Assembly (NCBI GenBank): GCA_024636315.1
Contig: JAGXHJ010000065.1
Span: 24,689-88,688 of the forward strand
From: Methylophaga sp.
GTDB taxonomy: Bacteria > Pseudomonadota > Gammaproteobacteria > Nitrosococcales > Methylophagaceae
DNA length: 64,000 nt
Direction of reading: 5' to 3'
Part shown: in pieces, positions 4,314-29,607 of the stretch
How the letters are laid out: every line of letters begins with the position of its first letter
Position numbering within the stretch: position 1 is the stretch's first letter
Program-made: the position numbers and the translations under genes
Notes under the pieces: model-generated
The model's input: the letters and a program-made list of their open reading frames with translations, nothing else
What the model was told of the DNA's origin: nothing
The model's database searches: none

Positions 4314-4466
4314 ATGCCTGAAAAAAAAGTAATAAAAGTAAAAGTGAAGCTTGTTGCACCTCACACCCATGCTGGTGAAAAGTGCAAAAAAGGCGACACT
4401 ATTGACGTCACCACAACACAAAAAACGTGGATGGCAAAACGTGGCTTAATTGAAGGAGAAGGCTAA
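4314..4466 (+). CDS. Small conserved phage protein (50 aa)
   Basis: MPEKKVIKVKVKLVAPHTHAGEKCKKGDTIDVTTTQKTWMAKRGLIEGEG; SD AGGAGA; stop overlaps next ATG. Confidence 0.6.
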   Translation: MPEKKVIKVKVKLVAPHTHAGEKCKKGDTIDVTTTQKTWMAKRGLIEGEG

Positions 4467-5218
4467 TGGCCGGTGTATTAGCGTCAGGTACGCTCTACCT
4501 AAATCGTATTATTAATGGTACTAAACAAGGCCGCGTAAAAGTGCCAGGTGTGGCCACCTTTAGTATCTCCCCTAAATCAGATAAAAAAGAAGCAACATCA
4601 AAAGACAAAAATAAATATGGCCAAGTGGTTGCCTCTGTTTTATTGCCACAACCTACAGAGTTTAAAGTCACCATTACCGATGTCGATGGCCCTGCATTAG
4701 CGATGGCCTTGATGGGTGACTTATCAGTGTTAACAGTAGGTGGCGGCACGGTTACTGGTGAAGCCGTGACAGCAAAACTTGATACCTTTGTTGATTTGGC
4801 TAACAAAAATCTCACTGCTTTGAGTGTTATTGTTAAAGATGCAGCCGATATCATTACGTATGTTGAAGGTACCGATTATGAATTGAACTATGCGTTAGGC
4901 TGGGTTAAGCCTATTTCTGGCGGTAGTATTGCTGCAGATGCTGTACTGCATATTGATTATGCGCATGGTGCGATTACAGGCCAAACTATCAACGGTTCAA
5001 CATTAGCCGAAGTACGTGGCGAATTTGTCTTGGACGGACAGAACTTAGCCGATGGCAAAGATTTAACCGTGTATGTGGATGAAGGTGTTGTCGCTACGGA
5101 TGGCGAAGTTGATTTTATGTCTGATGATTTCGTTGAACTATCTTTAGCGGGAACGATGGTTACACAAACAGGCAAAAACCAACCGTATGTGGTTGAACTT
5201 GGTAAAACATTGAGTTAA
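4466..5218 (+). CDS. Major tail (tube) protein
   Basis: Size, composition and position upstream of tape measure; MAGVLASGTLYLNRIINGTKQGRVKVPG... Confidence 0.65.
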   Translation: MAGVLASGTLYLNRIINGTKQGRVKVPGVATFSISPKSDKKEATSKDKNKYGQVVASVLLPQPTEFKVTITDVDGPALAMALMGDLSVLTVGGGTVTGEAVTAKLDTFVDLANKNLTALSVIVKDAADIITYVEGTDYELNYALGWVKPISGGSIAADAVLHIDYAHGAITGQTINGSTLAEVRGEFVLDGQNLADGKDLTVYVDEGVVATDGEVDFMSDDFVELSLAGTMVTQTGKNQPYVVELGKTLS

Positions 5219-5229
5219 CCAGCACTAGT

Positions 5230-5252
5230 GGTTGGTCGGGTTTTCCGACCAA
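5230..5252. terminator. Hairpin TTGGTCGG-GTTTTC-CGACCAA between convergent genes
   Basis: Inverted repeat directly after tail tube stop codon. Confidence 0.6.
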
Positions 5253-5296
5253 CTGAAATGTTAAACGATTTAGCCTGTTAGGGATGATGGGCTATT

Positions 5297-5869
5297 TTAC
5301 TGTGTTAATGCACCATTATAAGTGCCATCTAATGTATAGAAGCCAATCACTTCATCGAGGATAGTGGCGCCGAAAGCATTTTTCCCACGGTATGTCATTA
5401 CAACCATAATGTGATTTTCTTTATTAACGTAGCGTGTTGAAACGTGTTCAAAACTGCTGGGATCATTCATGACTGCTTTAGTTCTCTTCACAAAGTCTCG
5501 GTGAGAGCCATCCCACGCACTAAATTGGCTTTCTATCCTTTCTGTTGGTGTTATGAATTTTTCAACATAGACTGGCGCTGCCACTTCCTTGTCCGTAGTT
5601 TCTGAACCGCCAAACAATAAAATAAAAACCCAAACAACAACGGCGCTAGAGATTAGAATTATATTTCTTTTTGCTATCCCCATCTCTTTTGCGCTAAGGG
5701 TTTTTGAAGCTCCAATTGGTTTTCTAGTTTGGCTTTTTTGTGTTGATTTAGATTTCCCTAAAACACGTAATTCTTCTTCAGTAAATAAGACATTGCCACT
5801 GTCTTTTTCTTCTTTCATTTTGGCAACAGCCTCGGTGTAACTGAGGTTTGTTTCTTTCTTTTTAAACAT
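5297..5869 (-). CDS. Membrane-anchored moron protein; C-terminal domain shared with 19178..19708
   Basis: Single TM (IILISSAVVVWVFILLF); C-terminal MNDPSSFEHV...VVMTYRGKNAFGA; opposite strand to tail operon. Confidence 0.6.
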   Translation of the reverse strand: MFKKKETNLSYTEAVAKMKEEKDSGNVLFTEEELRVLGKSKSTQKSQTRKPIGASKTLSAKEMGIAKRNIILISSAVVVWVFILLFGGSETTDKEVAAPVYVEKFITPTERIESQFSAWDGSHRDFVKRTKAVMNDPSSFEHVSTRYVNKENHIMVVMTYRGKNAFGATILDEVIGFYTLDGTYNGALTQ

Positions 5870-5920
5870 ACGATATTCCTTTATATTTGCACTGATGCAC
5901 TATAAATCAACAATGACTTG

Positions 5921-5950
5921 TTGACAACAAAAGCGCAGTTCAGATATGAT
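5921..5950 (+). promoter_or_regulatory. Sigma70-like promoter TTGACA-18-TATGAT for C4-like/ant transcript
   Basis: Near-consensus -35 and -10 hexamers. Confidence 0.65.
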
Positions 5951-6017
5951 TCATTTGCACTGGCAAAATCCAGTGTCGGAGTTTGGAAGCTTCGGAATAT
6001 TACAGGACGCCCAATCA

Positions 6018-6037
6018 GCCGCGTCACGCGGTTTTTT
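6018..6037 (+). terminator. Intrinsic terminator CCGCG-TCA-CGCGG-T7 in ant leader
   Basis: GC stem plus seven Ts, between the promoter and the C4-like region. Confidence 0.65.
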
Positions 6038-6059
6038 TGTGCCATAATATTATGGTGGT

Positions 6060-6167
6060 TGTGCGTGGGGGAGCCTTCGGGTTCGCCGGTGCCTGTATCC
6101 GGTCTTCCAACTCTGCGTACAATCATCACCCTGTTTGGAAGTAGGGTGATGGTTTAATCCATACAGG
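6060..6167 (+). ncRNA. C4-antisense-RNA-like leader element controlling ant
   Basis: CCTGTAT (6092-6098) is exactly complementary to ATACAGG (6161-6167) at the ant RBS; CTTCCAA (6104-6110) is exactly complementary to TTGGAAG (6135-6141); pairs nest. Hairpin CATCACCCT/AGGGTGATG at 6124-6151. Confidence 0.6.
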
Positions 6168-6176
6168 AGATTAACC

Positions 6177-6701
6177 ATGAACTATCATCTCAACCCGCTT
6201 TCTGTGGGGCAATTTTCCATTTCTGAATGCGCCATGGTCGATAATGTGCCGCATGTCACCCGTAAAGCGATGGGTGAATTTCTCGAATATGCCGATCCCC
6301 AAAATGCAATCGATAAAATTTTAGAGCGAAATCCATTCATTAATTCCTATTCAGTACCTGTCAATATGTCAGGTGGTGATGGAAAAAATTACGATATTCG
6401 CGTTTATCATCCGGTCGGTTTTATGTCAGTCGTATTATCTAGCAATCAACCCAAAGCTAAATTAGTGAAAGAAGCTGTTGCCAATTTGGTTTATGACTAT
6501 TCACGGCGCGATAAAATTTCAGCAGGGTTGGAGGTTCAGATCCGCTATCAGAAAATTTCGATCATCAACAAACTTGACCAAGTAAAAACACAGTTTGCCC
6601 GTGAAGGATTGATAGCGAGCCTTAGACAAGTGTGCCAGCAATTAGGTGAGCCAGTGCCCGATATTGGCCTATTAGGTCTGGGGGTGAGCCATGAACGCTG
6701 A
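6177..6701 (+). CDS. Phage antirepressor-like protein (P22 Ant N-terminal type)
   Basis: HVTRKAMGEFLEYADPQNAIDKILERNPFI and VYHPVGFMSVVLSSNQPKAKLVKEAVANLV resemble antirepressor N-terminal families; strong SD CAGGAGA. Confidence 0.65.
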   Translation: MNYHLNPLSVGQFSISECAMVDNVPHVTRKAMGEFLEYADPQNAIDKILERNPFINSYSVPVNMSGGDGKNYDIRVYHPVGFMSVVLSSNQPKAKLVKEAVANLVYDYSRRDKISAGLEVQIRYQKISIINKLDQVKTQFAREGLIASLRQVCQQLGEPVPDIGLLGLGVSHER

Positions 6702-6876
6702 TCAGTTACGAGACTGCGGTAAATTCTGCACCGTTTCACAAGGGCTAGCAGTGTTAAGTTATATGATGTTTGAGTTTCGTGACAACACGGATTCACAGAT
6801 TAATTTTGAATATCTTGTTGCACAAGTGCAGCTTATTAATATTTGTCTTAACGAGGCGATGGAGGTGTTTGACTAA
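6691..6876 (+). CDS. Small phage protein (61 aa)
   Basis: ORF overlapping ant stop (ATGAACGCTGA). Confidence 0.45.
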   Translation: MNADQLRDCGKFCTVSQGLAVLSYMMFEFRDNTDSQINFEYLVAQVQLINICLNEAMEVFD

Positions 6877-6950
6877 GCCAATTTCCCCCCTGTTTTGCTT
6901 GACCAAAGCGTTGATAATGCCTAGCACTAACTAAAGGTAAAGCAATCGCG

Positions 6951-6989
6951 AAAAGCCACGGTTTCCATTATGGAACCGTGGCTTTTTTT
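6951..6989. terminator. Strong bidirectional intrinsic terminator
   Basis: AAAAGCCACGGTTTCCATTATGGAACCGTGGCTTTTTTT; near-perfect stem flanked by A/T tracts. Confidence 0.85.
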
Positions 6990-6999
6990 GGGAGAAAGT

Positions 7000-9900
7000 A
7001 TGGCAGGCAAAGCGGTTGAGATTCTACTCAAAGCAAAAGACTTCGCTTCTGCACAAATTGCAAAAGTAAATGAACGTGTCCGAGCAATCGGCCCTGCTAG
7101 TGATAGCTCGGTGGCTGGCAATGAGCGTTTATCTTCATCCTTTTCAACGCTAACATCACGCATTGGTGCTTTTATTGGTGCGACAGCAGGCTTTATTGCT
7201 GTTAAAGGTTTTTTTGAAGGTGTAATTAATACTGGTAGCAAGTTTGAAACATTACAAACTCAGATCGACGCGGTAACTGGAAGTGCTAAAGCTGGTGAGG
7301 AAGCATTTTCATGGATAAAACAATTTGCTAAAGACACCCCGTTCCAGCTTGATGAGGTTGCTACTTCATTTATAAAACTCAAAGCGTTTGGTCTTGACCC
7401 ACTCGATGGCACCTTTCAAAAGTTAGTCGATCAATCATCCAAATTGGGTGGTGGCCAAGAAAAATTAAATGGCATTATTATCGCGGTAGGCCAAGCATGG
7501 GCTAAGCAAAAATTGCAGGCTGAAGAAACGCTGCAGTTAGTCGAGCGTGGTGTACCTGTTTATGATCTGCTTAGTAAAGCTTTAAGCAAGACAACGGCCG
7601 AAATACAGCAAATGAGTTTTGATGGTGAGTTGGGCCGAGATGCAATTAAGGCGCTCATTGATGAAATGGGTAGTAGCTCATTAGGTGCCGCCGCGGCACA
7701 GATGGAAAATGCTTCCAGTGTCGTTTCAAATTTAAAAGATCAAATTACTGAGTTTTTCGCTGAAATTTCTGATCAGGGCGCATTGGAATACTTCAAAAGC
7801 CAACTAAAAGAACTCTCAAGCACTATTAAGCAGATGGTTGCCGATGGCAGTTTGAAAGAGTTTGCCAAAGATATAGCTGACGGCATGATATCAATGGCCA
7901 AAGCAATCAAAACGACTGTTAGCACCGTCGTTTCTTTTACCTCAGAAATAAAAAGCATGGTCGCCGCTTTTATCACGGTTAAATTTGTTCAATATACCGC
8001 GGCTTTTTTTCAAATAGCTAAGGCTATAACAGCGGCCAAATTTGCACAGATAGGCTTAAACATTGCAATGCGTGCCAACCCGATTGGGCTTTTAGTTACT
8101 GCTATTGGTGCGTTGTACATTGGGATTGAAGCCTTAGTTAATAAATATTTTGACTGGTCGACAAGTGCTGAACGAGCAGCAAGAGATCAGCAATTAGTCG
8201 CCGATCAAGCTGAGGCCGCTGCTGAAAAATACCGAGCATTAACTGAGCAACTTGGCTTGCAGATCACTAGTGAAGAAGATTTGAAGGCGGCTGTTGATGC
8301 TGGTTTAATTTCACTCAATCAAAAAACACAGGAATATGAGCGCGTAAAAACAGCGGCTGAATTAGCCACACTTGCCCAGAATAACTATGTATCAGCCTTA
8401 ACCGGTGTTACGGCTGAAATTAACTTGCAAGCGAATCAGATGGTAGCGGGTGCATTTGCTGGCCAACAGTTCAAAGCCAAGCTAGATGAGATGACAGCAA
8501 GTAGTCAAGGGCTTGCTGGTTCATTATCGTCTATGTCGTCGGGCGTTTTTGCTGAATTTATGGCGGCATCTGAAGAAATGTTAGCTGGCAACTTTTTAAC
8601 AGATCTTGAAACGGCTGATCTAAAACTCGTATTAATGTCAGAGTCATTTAAACGGCTTGGCGTTGATACTGAATTACTACAATCTGGTTTAACTTCTGCT
8701 GGGTTGGCTGCGGTCAAGACTTTTGCATTTATTGCCAATCAAGCCGAAGCAACAGGTGACGTATTATTACTTTCAATTGATGCTGCATTAACTAAAATTA
8801 AAAATAATAGAGGTATTGATGCGATTACTGCCGAAGTAGTTAAGTTGGCAAATACAGGTCGTTACACAAGCGATCAAATCCTTGCAATGATGAGTAAGAT
8901 CGATGCCGCCGCTGAAAAACTCATAAAGCCAATTAAAGAAATAAATAACCTCCTATCAAACTTGGGAAAGGACATTGGTGCAGCGGATACCGTAGAAGCA
9001 CTTGAAGACTTAAGCATAGCTGCGACAGATGCTTTTTCACAGGGAAAGATTACAGCCGAAGAATATAATGATCTTATCGAAGCTATTCAAAATAGGTTGG
9101 CTGATGTTAATGCGTTATTAGAGAGGCAAATACAATTACAGCAACAATTGAACGGCGAAAATGCTGACGGTGACGAACAGCAAGACGATGCTGAACGAAA
9201 CCATCATCGCGAAAGAGAAAAATCAATACAAATAACGGGTCGATTGGGTGAAGCCACGGCGAAAGCACTCGACATATCAAACAAAGCCCGAGTTGGAACA
9301 ATTCTAGGTGTTCAAGCAATACGCCAATACTTTGCCGGCGTAAATACGTTGGCAGCTCGACTACTTGAAGCAAGTGAGAACGCTGATAAATTTGCAGATA
9401 GCGTACTTAATACAGTGGATAGTGGTAACGCATCAGAACAGCAAATGGCCGGCTATGTTAAGCGATTGGAGCAAATGATCGCCGGCGGAAAGAACCTAGA
9501 TAATCAATCACTCAGCAAACTACAAAATGCATTGTCAGCAGCCAAGAGCAAGATGGCAGCTCTTAAAGATGAAACAAAATCAGCTCAAGATGTGATAGCT
9601 GGGCTTGCAGGTGAGCTTGCCGGACTAGAAGGCGATCAATTGAAAGTTCAAGCGATAGAGGCTCAGCAACGGCGACTTGATCTGGAAGGAAAGATAGCTC
9701 AGGCACAGGCGGAAGGTAATGCAGAGGCGGTGGCTAGCTACAATAAAGCGCTGTCGTTGTTAGACAAGATAAACGCCAAAAAGAAACAGCAAATAATCGT
9801 GCAACAACAGGCTGACGCACAGCAAAACAATCAGCAGCAACAAAGCAGCACTAAGCAGAACGGCTCATCACCTATCTCTTCATCGACCAGCAATGGTGCT

Positions 9901-10038
9901 CAGGCAATACCCTCAGGCCGAACTGTGTCGATCAGTTTTGTTGATCCAAAAGGTGAGACTGTGACAGGCGTATTCCCTGAACGAGACGAAAACAAGATGA
10001 TCGATATTTTCCGTAAATCGGGGGCGGTAACACGATGA
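7000..10038 (+). CDS. Tail tape measure protein
   Basis: ~1010 aa; TMP-type GSKFETLQTQIDAVTGSAKAGEEAFSWIKQFAKDTPFQLDEVATSFIKLKAFG; hydrophobic central region; SD GGGAGAAAG before ATG at 7000. Confidence 0.93.
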   Translation: MAGKAVEILLKAKDFASAQIAKVNERVRAIGPASDSSVAGNERLSSSFSTLTSRIGAFIGATAGFIAVKGFFEGVINTGSKFETLQTQIDAVTGSAKAGEEAFSWIKQFAKDTPFQLDEVATSFIKLKAFGLDPLDGTFQKLVDQSSKLGGGQEKLNGIIIAVGQAWAKQKLQAEETLQLVERGVPVYDLLSKALSKTTAEIQQMSFDGELGRDAIKALIDEMGSSSLGAAAAQMENASSVVSNLKDQITEFFAEISDQGALEYFKSQLKELSSTIKQMVADGSLKEFAKDIADGMISMAKAIKTTVSTVVSFTSEIKSMVAAFITVKFVQYTAAFFQIAKAITAAKFAQIGLNIAMRANPIGLLVTAIGALYIGIEALVNKYFDWSTSAERAARDQQLVADQAEAAAEKYRALTEQLGLQITSEEDLKAAVDAGLISLNQKTQEYERVKTAAELATLAQNNYVSALTGVTAEINLQANQMVAGAFAGQQFKAKLDEMTASSQGLAGSLSSMSSGVFAEFMAASEEMLAGNFLTDLETADLKLVLMSESFKRLGVDTELLQSGLTSAGLAAVKTFAFIANQAEATGDVLLLSIDAALTKIKNNRGIDAITAEVVKLANTGRYTSDQILAMMSKIDAAAEKLIKPIKEINNLLSNLGKDIGAADTVEALEDLSIAATDAFSQGKITAEEYNDLIEAIQNRLADVNALLERQIQLQQQLNGENADGDEQQDDAERNHHREREKSIQITGRLGEATAKALDISNKARVGTILGVQAIRQYFAGVNTLAARLLEASENADKFADSVLNTVDSGNASEQQMAGYVKRLEQMIAGGKNLDNQSLSKLQNALSAAKSKMAALKDETKSAQDVIAGLAGELAGLEGDQLKVQAIEAQQRRLDLEGKIAQAQAEGNAEAVASYNKALSLLDKINAKKKQQIIVQQQADAQQNNQQQQSSTKQNGSSPISSSTSNGAQAIPSGRTVSISFVDPKGETVTGVFPERDENKMIDIFRKSGAVTR

Positions 10039-19710: not shown

Positions 19711-20877
19711 TTATTTCACGCGTTTAAAATTATCGTCATTCTCACAATAGGCTAGGGCATCGAAACAAAGCCCTGTTAGTCTCATGATGTCGGATGGTTC
19801 AGGTAAGTTTATGTGGTCATTAGGCTCAATGGTTAGGCCTGAACGCTCAACTTCTTGTCGATGTTTGGCTGTTAATTCAATGCCAAAGTGGACTGTGGGG
19901 CTCTTTTTATCGCCATGATAATGCAATAACCAGCGATTGTTTTTGCCTTGAAATACAATACCAAAATAGCTCGCCGTATCTTTTGCTTCGATATTTTCAA
20001 CCGCTGTTTTTGTTTTCAAAATAGTCTGGGTATGTGCCAATAATTCGCGTTCTTGATGGGTGGAAACAATATTTGAATTATTGGGGTCAACGACTGCGGC
20101 AAGTGGGTCAAATGGTATTTCTTCTATCTCTTGAGCTGGTTCGGTGGATGATAAGCTATCAACAACCAATGAGCTTAGGACGTCTTTAACGGCTTTTTTA
20201 ACGATTGGCGTCATGTTATCGAGAGTTTTTTGTGTCATTCGTAATGTGGGATCGGCTTGATTGGCCACAAATTTAACGAAGTCAGGATCGAGATTTTTTA
20301 GGCTATTTCGAATGACCGCCTTAAAGCTGGTTAGATAGGTTAAATCTTCAGCTAGTGTTCGCATGTTTTCTGTCTTCAGATAACCATAACGGAATTTAGC
20401 CAATTCAGATGAATCCAAAATACCCAAGTTTTTGAAGTCAATTTCAAGGAAAGGTTTTTCATCCATGATGTTGTTGTTAGAGAGATCAGTGTAAAAGGCC
20501 CATTGATGGCCATTGGTTACCGCACCAATGCAGACACTGGGGGTTGCATTGAAATAGCGAGACAGTTGTGGCATGTGTTTGGGCAGTTTTTGATCAAAAG
20601 GTTTAGCCTCAATGAACATGACTAATTCACCTTCGGAGTAAAGTGCATAATCAACACGCTCACTATTTTTGGCGCCGGTGAAATCAGCACAGTATTCAGC
20701 TCTGACCATAAGCGGATTAAACGGGCTATAACCTAAGATGTCTAGCAACGGCAGAATAAGTGCCTGTTTCGTTGTTTCTTCGGTTTTGCAGTGAGGCCCA
20801 GCTTCTGCAATATGCTCGCTATGTTCTTTTATTCGTTGTGTAAAATTATCCATCACCACTTCCTTATTATTAATCAC
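19711..20877 (-). CDS. Orphan type I restriction HsdR N-terminal-like nuclease domain protein
   Basis: KTEETTKQALILPLLDILGYSPFNP...ERVDYALYSEGELVMFIEAKP: PD-(D/E)xK pattern of the HSDR_N family; no helicase, HsdM or HsdS nearby. Confidence 0.75.
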   Translation of the reverse strand: MINNKEVVMDNFTQRIKEHSEHIAEAGPHCKTEETTKQALILPLLDILGYSPFNPLMVRAEYCADFTGAKNSERVDYALYSEGELVMFIEAKPFDQKLPKHMPQLSRYFNATPSVCIGAVTNGHQWAFYTDLSNNNIMDEKPFLEIDFKNLGILDSSELAKFRYGYLKTENMRTLAEDLTYLTSFKAVIRNSLKNLDPDFVKFVANQADPTLRMTQKTLDNMTPIVKKAVKDVLSSLVVDSLSSTEPAQEIEEIPFDPLAAVVDPNNSNIVSTHQERELLAHTQTILKTKTAVENIEAKDTASYFGIVFQGKNNRWLLHYHGDKKSPTVHFGIELTAKHRQEVERSGLTIEPNDHINLPEPSDIMRLTGLCFDALAYCENDDNFKRVK

Positions 20878-21328
20878 TCAAATCCCGAATTAAATTCATT
20901 ACTGCTTTTTTGTGTTTAGGCGAGAGCTTCTTAAACATGATCGTTAAAGCAGCGTCTTCAAAGTCGTTGACCTTGCTTTCTTGTATGCCATGGTGCTTGG
21001 TTGGGCTAGATTCCCATCGTTGAGCAAAAAACAATCGCATGACGATTTCTTGATTTAGGCTATTTCTATGCACAGTGCCGTGCATGCGTAACGATTCCTT
21101 TAGTTTTTCATCTAAGCGGAACTGGAACACCTCAGTATTAAGTTTTGTCGGGCTTGATTGTTTAAACAGCGCAACATCCTGTTCTGAAAACTCCTTATCT
21201 AAGACTGAATTAAGCTTAAATATAACTTCACTATTATTACTTCGTCGGCTTTCTTTAGCCGACAAAATCAACCAGTCCAATGTCTGGACAGGTAAACGCA
21301 GACTGTAGGAAACCGTTTTATTTTTCAT
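20870..21328 (-). CDS. Tandem Arc-like ribbon-helix-helix repressor
   Basis: Two RHH-like segments: VSYSLRLPVQTLDWLILSAKESRRSNNSEVIFKL and EVFQFRLDEKLKESLRMHGTVHRNSLNQEIVMRL. Confidence 0.7.
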   Translation of the reverse strand: MKNKTVSYSLRLPVQTLDWLILSAKESRRSNNSEVIFKLNSVLDKEFSEQDVALFKQSSPTKLNTEVFQFRLDEKLKESLRMHGTVHRNSLNQEIVMRLFFAQRWESSPTKHHGIQESKVNDFEDAALTIMFKKLSPKHKKAVMNLIRDLSD

Positions 21329-21398
21329 TAGATGCAAAGTGTAGCTATTTTATGTTGACGTAAATAGATGCAATCTGTATTGTGAATCCATATTGCAT
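21329..21398. promoter_or_regulatory. Divergent promoter/operator region with TAGATGCAA repeats
   Basis: TAGATGCAA at 21329-21337 and 21365-21373, inverted TTGCAT at 21393-21398; TTGACG(21355)-17-TATTGT(21378) promoter with repeat in spacer. Confidence 0.6.
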
Positions 21399-21722: not shown

Positions 21723-22181
21723 ATGAGTAACATGTACGACCCAATTGAAACAGCCATGTATGACATGGTGCATGATTTCCCCGGCGGCGCTGTCAAGCTG
21801 GCTGCCCGTGTCAATATGAATGCTGGCACGCTCAATAACAAAATTAACCCCTCCATGGAATCTCATCATTTGACGCTGAAAGAAGCCGTCAACCTGATGC
21901 TCGCGACCAATGACCTTCGTTTACTACACGCAATAGGCACCGAACTCGGTTTTGTATGTGTGCCTGTTGGGCATTTGGCTGGCGTTTCTGATATTGAATT
22001 TTTGTCTGTTTTTAGCAGAGCAATGTCAGAAGTCGGCGATATGAGTCAAGCCGTTTACGAGGCTTTCAGCGATGGGAAAATCACGCGAAAGGAAGTGGAG
22101 TTAGTGCGTAAAGAAACGGTTGAAGCTATGGCTGCACTGGCTGAACTGCCGTCTCGACTTGAATCAATGTGTGATGAGTAA
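21723..22181 (+). CDS. Phage regulatory protein CII (CP76 family)
   Basis: FPGGAVKLAARVNMNAGTLNNKINP...HHLTLKEAVNLMLATND typical of Phage_CP76. Confidence 0.8.
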   Translation: MSNMYDPIETAMYDMVHDFPGGAVKLAARVNMNAGTLNNKINPSMESHHLTLKEAVNLMLATNDLRLLHAIGTELGFVCVPVGHLAGVSDIEFLSVFSRAMSEVGDMSQAVYEAFSDGKITRKEVELVRKETVEAMAALAELPSRLESMCDE

Positions 22182-22250: not shown

Positions 22251-22844
22251 ATGGAAATGAAAAGATATTTAACGGTTAGTGAAGAAAAAACATTGTTTAA
22301 AACGGTCGATGGCGTGGCGGGTGTATTGGCTCAGCGCGATGGTGCTTGGATGTTATTGCTTCGTCAAACTGGCATGCGTATTGGTTCATTAGCCGGATTA
22401 ACGGTTGCTGATGCGAGACATGGCCTTGCGACTAATTATTTAGAACTAAAAGATGAACATGCCAAAGGTGGGAATGGTTACCAGATATTTTTAAACAAAA
22501 CATCAAAGGCCTGTTTACGAGTTTTGTTAAGCAACCGTATCGAAATGGGTTACACCGCCGAACCTGATATGCCGTTAGTGATGGGCCGTAATAATCAAGG
22601 TTTGAGCATTCGTAGTTTTCAAAGTCGTATGCGAATTTGGGTTGATAAATCATGCATTGCCATGCCTGCTTCGCCACACTGGTTTCGGCATACGTTGGCA
22701 ATGCGAATTATGAGCCAATCCACTGCCACTAATAAATTGGGCGTTGTGCAAGCAGCATTGGGCCATTCAACCGCTGATGCAACGATGATTTATACCCGTC
22801 CAAATCGTGAAGATGTTGCTTTAGCAATGGAGGAAGCGTCATGA
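22251..22844 (+). CDS. Short tyrosine recombinase
   Basis: Catalytic residues apparent: RQTGMRIGSL, HWFRHTLA, LGHSTADATMIYTR; lacks long N-terminal domain (197 aa). Confidence 0.85.
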   Translation: MEMKRYLTVSEEKTLFKTVDGVAGVLAQRDGAWMLLLRQTGMRIGSLAGLTVADARHGLATNYLELKDEHAKGGNGYQIFLNKTSKACLRVLLSNRIEMGYTAEPDMPLVMGRNNQGLSIRSFQSRMRIWVDKSCIAMPASPHWFRHTLAMRIMSQSTATNKLGVVQAALGHSTADATMIYTRPNREDVALAMEEAS

Positions 22845-27959: not shown

Positions 27960-28104
27960 CGTTGTTGTCGAAACTAGGGGCGAGATCGACATAGATGCAG
28001 TATCTGACTTCTTGTTACCGTTGCTCTTTAAGCATCTAACTGATAATAAAATTAATGAAAAACCAAGCCGCCCTTTATCTGAGATCCAGCAAAGACCGCA
28101 GTGA
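27952..28104 (+). CDS. Small phage protein upstream of integrase
   Basis: MADVVVETRGEIDIDAVSDFLLPLLFKHLTDNKINEKPSRPLSEIQQRPQ; overlaps both neighbours. Confidence 0.45.
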   Translation: MADVVVETRGEIDIDAVSDFLLPLLFKHLTDNKINEKPSRPLSEIQQRPQ

Positions 28105-29572
28105 TGTAAGCATTTCTGCACAACGACGAGAGTTATATTCGCTGGCTAAACAGCGAAATTTAGTTATCGTTGATGAGTATGTCGATGCGGTTGAGTCTGG
28201 TTCAACAGAAAACCGCCCAGGCTTTCAAGAAATGTTTAATGCGATTAAGTCTCGTGATCGTGCATGGGATACTATTTTACTGCTTGATACGAGTCGATTA
28301 TCGCGCCGGCAATACATTTCCCATTTCTTTGAATATGAGTGCGAAAAAAAGAACATTACGCTTATATATAAGAGTCTACCTGTTGAAGATCCTATCAGTG
28401 CCATGATGCTGAAGGCTGTATTGCAAGCAATGGACCAATGGCATTCAATGATCAGCAAGCAAAAAGGGCTTGCTGGCATGTCTGAGAATGTTAAACAGGG
28501 TTTTCGTGCCGGTGGCAGTGCACCTCGAGGTTATTCTCTTGAGAAAGTCACCACTAAAACGATTCGTGATGGTGTCGCTGTGACTAAATCACGATTGGTC
28601 CCTAATGATGATGCTGAATTAGTGGGCGAGTTATTGTCATATCGAGCAAAAGGTCTACCTCGTCAACGTGTTCATGACAGCCTTGATATTAAGTGGCCAA
28701 CAAATTCAACGTTGTCGATGGAATGGAATGCATTAACGTATGCTGGCCATACGGTATGGAATGTTCATGCTGAGCGACGTGAAGGTAAAAGCATTACAGG
28801 AATGAAGCGCCGGCCACGAAGTGAATGGCATATAAAAGAAAATACACACCAGGCATTAATCTCTCACCAACAAGCTGAAATGATACTGTCTCAATTAGAG
28901 TCTAAACAGCGTAAATCTAAGCCAACCAAGGCTATTTACTTACTCTCAGGTCTGCTTTATTCAGCTGAGACAGGTGAGAAGTATCACGGTGATCGCGCTA
29001 AATATTATCGGCTTGGTAAATCAAAACGCATCCCGTGTGACACGATAGACGATGCAATAATGAAACAGATCCTTTCGGATTTGCAATCAAATTACTTTAT
29101 CAAGGCCATTACCAACAAAGCACGCGAAAAACTAAATCCACAAACTCGTAATGTGAAACGTGGCGCCATCACTCGAAAAGTTGACGATATCTCGAAAAAG
29201 ATAATAAAACTGATGGATTTGATTACAGAAGTCGATGATACCGCGCCCTATATGGCCAGAATTAAAGATCTGAACACGCAGCGTGATGAACTTGAACTGA
29301 AGGTATATGAGATGAACCGGCTGGAAATGGACTCTAAAGACATCAATGAGTTTGATATTAAGCGTGCTTTAGCGTCATTGGCTACTGAATTACAAACATT
29401 GGATAGGGATCAGCTGAAGGATATGCTTTCCGTAATAATTAGCAAAATCAACGTTTTAGAGTCAACCCCCCAAAAGAGGGAACCCCCTAGAGCTGAAATT
29501 CACTATAGAATCAACTCTAGGGGGGTTGTAATGGCGTCCCCAAGGGGGTTCGAACCCCTGTTACCGCCGTGA
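28055..29572 (+). CDS. Large serine recombinase/integrase
   Basis: Resolvase N-terminus YLRSSKDRSDVSISAQRRELYSLAKQ...LDTSRLSRR; recombinase domain; C-terminus encoded inside tRNA-Glu. Confidence 0.92.
   Translation: MKNQAALYLRSSKDRSDVSISAQRRELYSLAKQRNLVIVDEYVDAVESGSTENRPGFQEMFNAIKSRDRAWDTILLLDTSRLSRRQYISHFFEYECEKKNITLIYKSLPVEDPISAMMLKAVLQAMDQWHSMISKQKGLAGMSENVKQGFRAGGSAPRGYSLEKVTTKTIRDGVAVTKSRLVPNDDAELVGELLSYRAKGLPRQRVHDSLDIKWPTNSTLSMEWNALTYAGHTVWNVHAERREGKSITGMKRRPRSEWHIKENTHQALISHQQAEMILSQLESKQRKSKPTKAIYLLSGLLYSAETGEKYHGDRAKYYRLGKSKRIPCDTIDDAIMKQILSDLQSNYFIKAITNKAREKLNPQTRNVKRGAITRKVDDISKKIIKLMDLITEVDDTAPYMARIKDLNTQRDELELKVYEMNRLEMDSKDINEFDIKRALASLATELQTLDRDQLKDMLSVIISKINVLESTPQKREPPRAEIHYRINSRGVVMASPRGFEPLLPP
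29481..29527. repeat. Inverted repeat AACCCCCTAGAG ... CTCTAGGGGGGTT near prophage end
   Basis: 12-bp arms with one extra G, adjacent to tRNA-Glu. Confidence 0.75.
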
Positions 29573-29607
29573 AAGGGCAGTGTCCTAGGCCTCTAGACGA
29601 TGGGGAC
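29532..29607 (-). tRNA. tRNA-Glu (TTC), copy 1 (probable prophage att site)
   Basis: GTCCCCATCGTCTAGAGGCCTAGGACACTGCCCTTTCACGGCGGTAACAGGGGTTCGAACCCCCTTGGGGACGCCA. Confidence 0.96.

Follow-up and report, generated by a model that had tools for sequence, protein, structure and literature searches.

Phage P1 and prophage Gifsy-1 are among the described systems closest to the locus reported here. The c4 RNA of P1, which is recognized by the same Rfam model as the RNA described below, is a proven trans-acting antisense RNA according to Citron and Schuster (1990), as cited in PMC2864571. In Gifsy-1, the short IsrK RNA supplied in trans increases anrP translation about 100-fold, and the substitutions G28A and G31A abolish this effect (PMC4825925). 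Compensatory mutations have been published for G28/C162 and G31/C159. Among isrK RNAs, Gifsy-1 IsrK is the only one for which the literature reports binding to Hfq and trans activation of the gene downstream. Mutations of the same IsrK site, called a1 below, raise the basal expression of anrP when they are in cis, and the orf45 segment gives rise to a stable processed RNA, STnc1160 (PMC4825925). The IsrK paper compares IsrK with P4 seqA and proposes riboswitch-like alternative structures for orf45-anrP, with native gels showing two conformers (PMC4825925). It does not mention C4, Citron, phage P1, the c4 repressor or the Rfam accession. A 2025 review has IsrK and c4 as unrelated entries (PMC12197685), and a table on Xylella gives isrK and C4 46 bp apart with no comment (PMC12189769). 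We found no paper joining IsrK with C4 in a literature search that covered mainly open-access journals.

Here "the window" means the whole 64-kb stretch of Methylophaga sp. DNA that was analysed. It very probably carries an operon of the C4 type, in which an antisense RNA controls an antirepressor; the operon forms a self-contained prophage insert between two tail genes. Systems of this kind are already known, and with the window cassette the C4 family gains one prophage. Of broader interest is the link between isrK and C4, more than the single cassette.

C4 and isrK RNAs of the window

An Rfam scan of the whole window gave a match to the C4 antisense RNA (E 2e-10), and the fold of this segment is 4.1 SD better than that of shuffled sequences (z -4.1). 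The cassette is a true C4-type antisense RNA operon upstream of an antirepressor-like gene (Table 1). The original prediction had proposed such control from the DNA letters alone; the C4 match, which is above the Rfam cut-off, and the covariation described below support it, the repression itself being predicted from the sequence. Just 5' of C4 lies an isrK-family segment, which includes the terminator and holds a second copy of both C4 targets; the original prediction had overlooked it. The c4-a1b1 model (RF03163) overlaps this segment at 20.4 bits, under its cut-off of 46.7. Judging by its a1/b1 pairing, the segment would work like c4-a1b1 while scoring outside that family.

The order of the elements from 5' to 3' is promoter, a1, b1, terminator, C4 (b', a'), a2, b2 and ant. 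Two segments of C4 are exactly complementary, over 7 + 7 nt, to two sites at the ant ribosome-binding region. The promoter, the intrinsic terminator with its T7 run, the complementarity of CCTGTAT to ATACAGG and of CTTCCAA to TTGGAAG, and the 9-bp hairpin before the Shine-Dalgarno sequence had all been predicted, and we found each of them at its place. The annotated P1 record labels the same succession a1, b1, c4, a2, b2. The names a and b had been exchanged, since in that record the TTG-type site is called a and the one at the ribosome-binding site b. The sequence TTGACA is also found at the promoter place in G017, from the same genus, and GACA in G041, from the same family; these are the two closest leaders, with which we compared the window. 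The cassette stretch holds 4 promoter-like sites versus 4.1 in shuffles, i.e., no excess.

The 5' arm of the 9-bp hairpin is also the 3' strand of the C4 stem. Because this arm is shared and a2 lies in the loop, the formation of C4 and the display of a2 may be mutually exclusive on one molecule. A stem of at least 7 bp is present at the hairpin position in 60 of the 86 C4 loci among the matches listed.

The ORF across the leader (5918-6157) had been taken for an Ash/Icd-like one. Searched against Pfam and NCBIfam, it gave no match with an E value of 1 or less, and no similar ORF was found in the relatives. An Ash/Icd-like protein in the leader was rejected as a candidate: the window ORFs and eight equivalents in relatives gave no Pfam/NCBIfam match and shared no consistent frame.

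Table 1. Features of the cassette and its borders (positions in the window)
Feature	Position	Strand	Basis
Major tail (tube) protein, bordering the slot on the left	4466-5218	+	phrog_807, E 2e-41
Flanking divergent gene, 190 aa, in the same insertion slot	5297-5869	-	phrog_3403, unknown function, E 7e-16
Sigma-70-like promoter TTGACA-18-TATGAT, putatively of the isrK-C4-ant transcript	5921-5950	+	11/12 consensus; consensus match only
isrK-family RNA, a leader or short terminated transcript, containing a1 and b1	5957-6038	+	Rfam RF01394, 59.4 bits, cut-off 50
a1 = TTGGAAG, upstream target of a'	5983-5989	+	Exact complement of 6104-6110; covaries in relatives
b1 = TACAGG, upstream target of b'	6001-6006	+	Complement of CCTGTA within 6092-6098
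Intrinsic terminator (hairpin and T7) between a1/b1 and C4	~6017-6038	+	Identical sequence in G017 and G041
C4 antisense RNA	6048-6133	+	Rfam RF01695, 65.2 bits, cut-off 45
b' = CCTGTAT, loop of the second C4 hairpin	6092-6098	+	Rfam alignment; complement of 6161-6167
a' = CTTCCAA, single-stranded part of C4	6104-6110	+	Rfam alignment; complement of 5983-5989 and 6135-6141
9-bp hairpin, CATCACCCT (6124-6132) / AGGGTGATG (6143-6151), a2 in the loop	6124-6151	+	Fold z -2.7
a2 = TTGGAAG	6135-6141	+	Exact complement of a'; covariation
b2 = ATACAGG, overlapping the ant Shine-Dalgarno AGGAG (6165-6169)	6161-6167	+	Complement of b'
ant, antirepressor-like, 174 aa, diverged Bro-N type	6177-6701	+	PHROG anti-repressor Ant, E 0.003; Bro-N E 0.0023, sub-threshold
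Small ORF of 61 aa; overlaps the end of ant	6691-6876	+	G017 C4 cassette encodes a homologue (40% over 45 aa, E 3e-9)
Cassette-closing terminator, GCCACGGTTTCC/GGAACCGTGGC then T7	6952-6989	+	Sequence; a similar hairpin closes the G017 cassette
Tape measure protein, bordering the slot on the right	7000-10038	+	Pfam TMP_3, E 5e-36

Covariation of the pairing sites and the isrK-C4 tandem

A pattern search for the C4 core found at least 120 viral contigs. The covariation set consisted of 86 non-redundant core loci among the matches listed, 82 of them with enough flanking sequence; it contains some chance matches to the core, which lower the covariation rates. In the 86 listed loci, a' and b' are more complementary to their own upstream and downstream regions than to those of other loci, and for each of the four pairings the own-locus complementarity reaches at least the 95th percentile of other loci in 76–82%. 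The exact complement of the a' 7-mer is present in the 26-nt a2 window of 73 of the 82 listed loci, upstream in 74 and at both places in 69; mismatched locus pairs reach 0.9% and 3.9%. The loci with both complements hold 24 different a' 7-mers. The original prediction had named covariation in homologous prophages as a check, and strong covariation was found.

The comparison of the three leaders gives the same picture at the level of single sites. Around the isrK terminator, the window, G017 and G041 do not differ in sequence. The a1/a'/a2 sites read TTTGGAAG/CTTCCAA/TTTGGAAG in the window, TTCGAAAG/CTTTCGA/TTCGAAAG in G017 and TTTAGCAG/CTGCTAA/TTTAGCAG in G041. That is, the a sites of both relatives are altered jointly at all three places on a frozen scaffold. 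The b sites likewise change jointly, fully in G041 and partly in G017. An isrK covariance model based on RNAalifold had 6 base pairs only and was replaced by the Rfam model and a terminator scan. An intrinsic terminator lies between b1 and C4 in 40 of 73 loci among the matches listed, versus 2.9 expected.

The tandem recurs elsewhere. In seven of nine further C4 loci in the genomes of relatives, isrK scores above its cut-off about 10–20 nt upstream of C4, and in an eighth (G070, L004) it is just under the cut-off (47.8 bits). The isrK-C4 tandem is also found in phiV10, in D6 and, in two copies, in PPyecE_EH1910. The two tandems of PPyecE_EH1910 (L168 742-930 and 1398-1586) are about 650 bp apart and differ in their pairing sites.

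In the isrK-orf45-anrP region of Gifsy-1 (NC_010392.1 33450-35300), isrK scores 79.3 bits, c4-a1b1 48.1 bits and C4, which lies inside orf45, 69.0 bits. By its sequence, this region is also a C4 operon. The published positions G28 and G31 fall in the Gifsy-1 a1 (TTGGCG), and C162 and C159 in a' (CGCCAA) of C4; the placement is exact, since the partners are 134 and 128 nt apart in the sequence, as published. IsrK, studied until now as a one-of-a-kind dual-function RNA, is thus placed in the C4 family, and the pairing of the published mutations is explained. A broader proposal, for and against which we see the case as evenly poised, is that the isrK RNAs of Rfam are in general terminated leaders of C4 operons. 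They would be transcribed from the promoter of C4, carry both targets, titrate C4 and so license translation of the antirepressor; IsrK and STnc1160 would be a decoy and its C4, and the specificity of each C4 system would drift apart through joint changes at its six sites, with the scaffold kept fixed. From the comparison of the loci we expect short isrK RNAs to control prophage induction by way of C4 in many phages.

The antirepressor-like gene and the proposed mechanism

The other C4 operons, in relatives and in Gifsy-1, encode Bro-N, AntA or ORF6N proteins downstream of C4. Over 91 aa, the window Ant is 27% identical (pairwise E 1e-9) to a confident Bro-N protein (79 bits) that is encoded downstream of the G052 C4. 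When Ant was compared by profile with the Bro-N proteins linked to C4, the probability was 28% (E 6e-4), which is suggestive only, and the single-sequence AlphaFold model of Ant, with a pLDDT of 37.5, is unusable. Using tblastn, we found no relatives of Ant in phage records and named genomes, one weak relative in 95 genomes, and one viral contig (IMG/VR) with an identical ant and the same C4 and isrK. The divergence of ant, together with a host genome that is a fragmented draft of 113 contigs, could point to a formerly active C4 operon that no longer works in a decaying prophage. This is very improbable: the six pairing sites all fit, the scaffold shows the conservation seen in the relatives, ant is open, and the viral contig keeps the same ant, C4 and isrK.

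Many C4 operons (viral contigs L017-L136) begin with short unannotated ORFs of 60–120 aa in place of a recognizable antirepressor. A protein of 61–65 aa that overlaps or follows the C4-controlled gene is common to the window (6691-6876) and the G017 cassette (L180 5062-5259). The window ORF has no family match in PHROG and Pfam profile searches. ORFs of similar size are present in many C4 operons, and the alignment with them is too weak for a family claim beyond G017.

We propose that a single transcript from one promoter would carry a1/b1 (isrK), C4 and ant. A part of the transcripts would end at the isrK terminator and yield a short RNA, and C4 would be processed from the read-through transcripts. 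By pairing with a2 and b2 at the ant ribosome-binding site, C4 would block translation of ant during lysogeny; once made, Ant would inactivate a phage repressor. Since the short isrK RNA has the same targets, it should bind C4, and its level should set the amount of free C4. The computed IsrK-C4 duplex of the window (-35.9 kcal/mol) is better than all 500 shuffles. The pairing energy of C4 with the leader alone is unexceptional, 35 of 500 shuffles being equally good.

The titration step is modelled on the Gifsy-1 experiments. There, the loss of trans activation on mutation of a1 fits the titration of C4. The increase in basal anrP expression caused by a1 mutations in cis indicates that a pure decoy role of a1 is insufficient, and by analogy with P4 seqA the a1/b1 sites are probably a cis target as well. 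The same cis mutations, and the comparison with seqA in the IsrK paper (PMC4825925), also agree with a different scheme, in which C4 acts mainly by transcription termination, as in P4 CI RNA with its seqA and seqC. Pairing with nascent a1/b1 and loss of ribosomes at a2/b2 would then stop transcription, and the short isrK RNA would be a product and no regulator. The preservation of both target pairs by covariation and the terminator between a1/b1 and C4 suit this scheme too. We consider it possible but rather unlikely, because the strong activation of anrP by short IsrK in trans, lost with a1 mutations (PMC4825925), means that the short RNA is active in Gifsy-1.

In the fold predicted for the complete transcript in the window, a1/b1 pair with a'/b' in cis and C4 stays unformed, which speaks against the model. 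The whole-transcript folds of G017 and G041 show the same pairing. Such folds, like the two conformers on the Gifsy-1 native gels, might indicate a riboswitch-like leader acting in cis with no antisense RNA, where alternative folds of isrK and C4 open or close the ribosome-binding site. It would have to account for a b' that is complementary to the ribosome-binding site and covaries with it, for the proven action of P1 c4 in trans, and for the stable STnc1160 from the equivalent Gifsy-1 segment, which makes such a leader very improbable. Repression of ant by an antisense C4, relieved by the short isrK RNA, is the reading that we prefer.

Insertion slot and comparison with known systems

The prophage of G017 has its structural module in common with the window (48–73% protein identity). 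Only 115 bp separate its tail tube and tape measure genes (L180 16829-16942), with no insert, and its own isrK-C4 cassette is found some 12 kb upstream of the gene for the tape measure protein. The first gene of that cassette is a different one, and it is accompanied by a homologue of the 61-aa ORF. The same slot holds Arc-like repressors and Rha/ANT antirepressors in L013 (3819-7529) and L014 (4395-7880), and unrelated genes in L015 and L016; neither C4 nor isrK was found in these four more distant relatives. Because the G017 slot is empty and other relatives fill it with other genes, the window cassette was inserted, together with a promoter and terminator of its own, into a variable slot (5219-6999 in the window) where antirepressor modules are taken up again and again. 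Thus, one tail-gene slot receives antirepressor modules under two unrelated controls, RNA in the window and ribbon-helix-helix repressors in the relatives. The cassette's late-region position had been called unusual. It is not, since the phiV10 cassette lies beside a tail fibre gene, that of the same-genus prophage lies upstream of the tail genes, and other antirepressor modules occupy the relatives' tail slot.

An Arc-like ribbon-helix-helix gene (20870-21337), the only Arc-like gene recognized in the window, is divergent from a CII-like (Phage_CP76) gene (21723-22181). This pair probably forms the lysogeny switch and is a candidate for the partner of Ant. A large serine recombinase gene (28055-29572), the end of which overlaps a tRNA-Glu gene (29532-29607), marks a probable attachment end of the prophage. 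A second integrase-like ORF, of the tyrosine type, lies at 22251-22844.

Among the named systems, P22 immI (Mnt/Arc/Ant) resembles the window in having an antirepressor module in the late structural region. It differs in being controlled by ribbon-helix-helix repressors, as are the modules in the tail slot of L013 and L014; the window neighbours 5297-5869 and 6691-6876 are not ribbon-helix-helix proteins, so that no adjacent Arc/Mnt of the P22 type is present. P4 CI RNA, likened here by description, is also an antisense RNA between upstream and downstream targets on its own transcript (PMC4825925), but it acts on replication genes by premature termination. The anti-immunity cassette of the phiV10/epsilon15 type has isrK (75.9 bits), C4 (77.7 bits) and a Bro-N protein; the phage type and the slot are different.

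Gifsy-1 shares with the window isrK with its terminator, C4, an antirepressor gene and the same a1 x a' pairing. However, its cassette adjoins antQ in the middle of the phage map and its antirepressor is of the ORF6N type; orf45 reaches the start of anrP, whereas the window ORF through C4 stops 32 nt before ant. P1/P7 immI (c4-icd-ant) has the same succession of promoter, a1/b1, C4, a2/b2 at the ribosome-binding site and antirepressor downstream. As a positive control, P1 gave C4 at 68.8 bits, c4-a1b1 at 51.0 bits and, over the same segment as the latter, a sub-threshold isrK at 35.1 bits. In contrast to P1/P7, the upstream RNA of the window scores as isrK and not as c4-a1b1, icd is absent, so that ant starts right after b2 (6167 to 6177), the antirepressor is of another type, and the cassette occupies a late-region slot of an integrated prophage.
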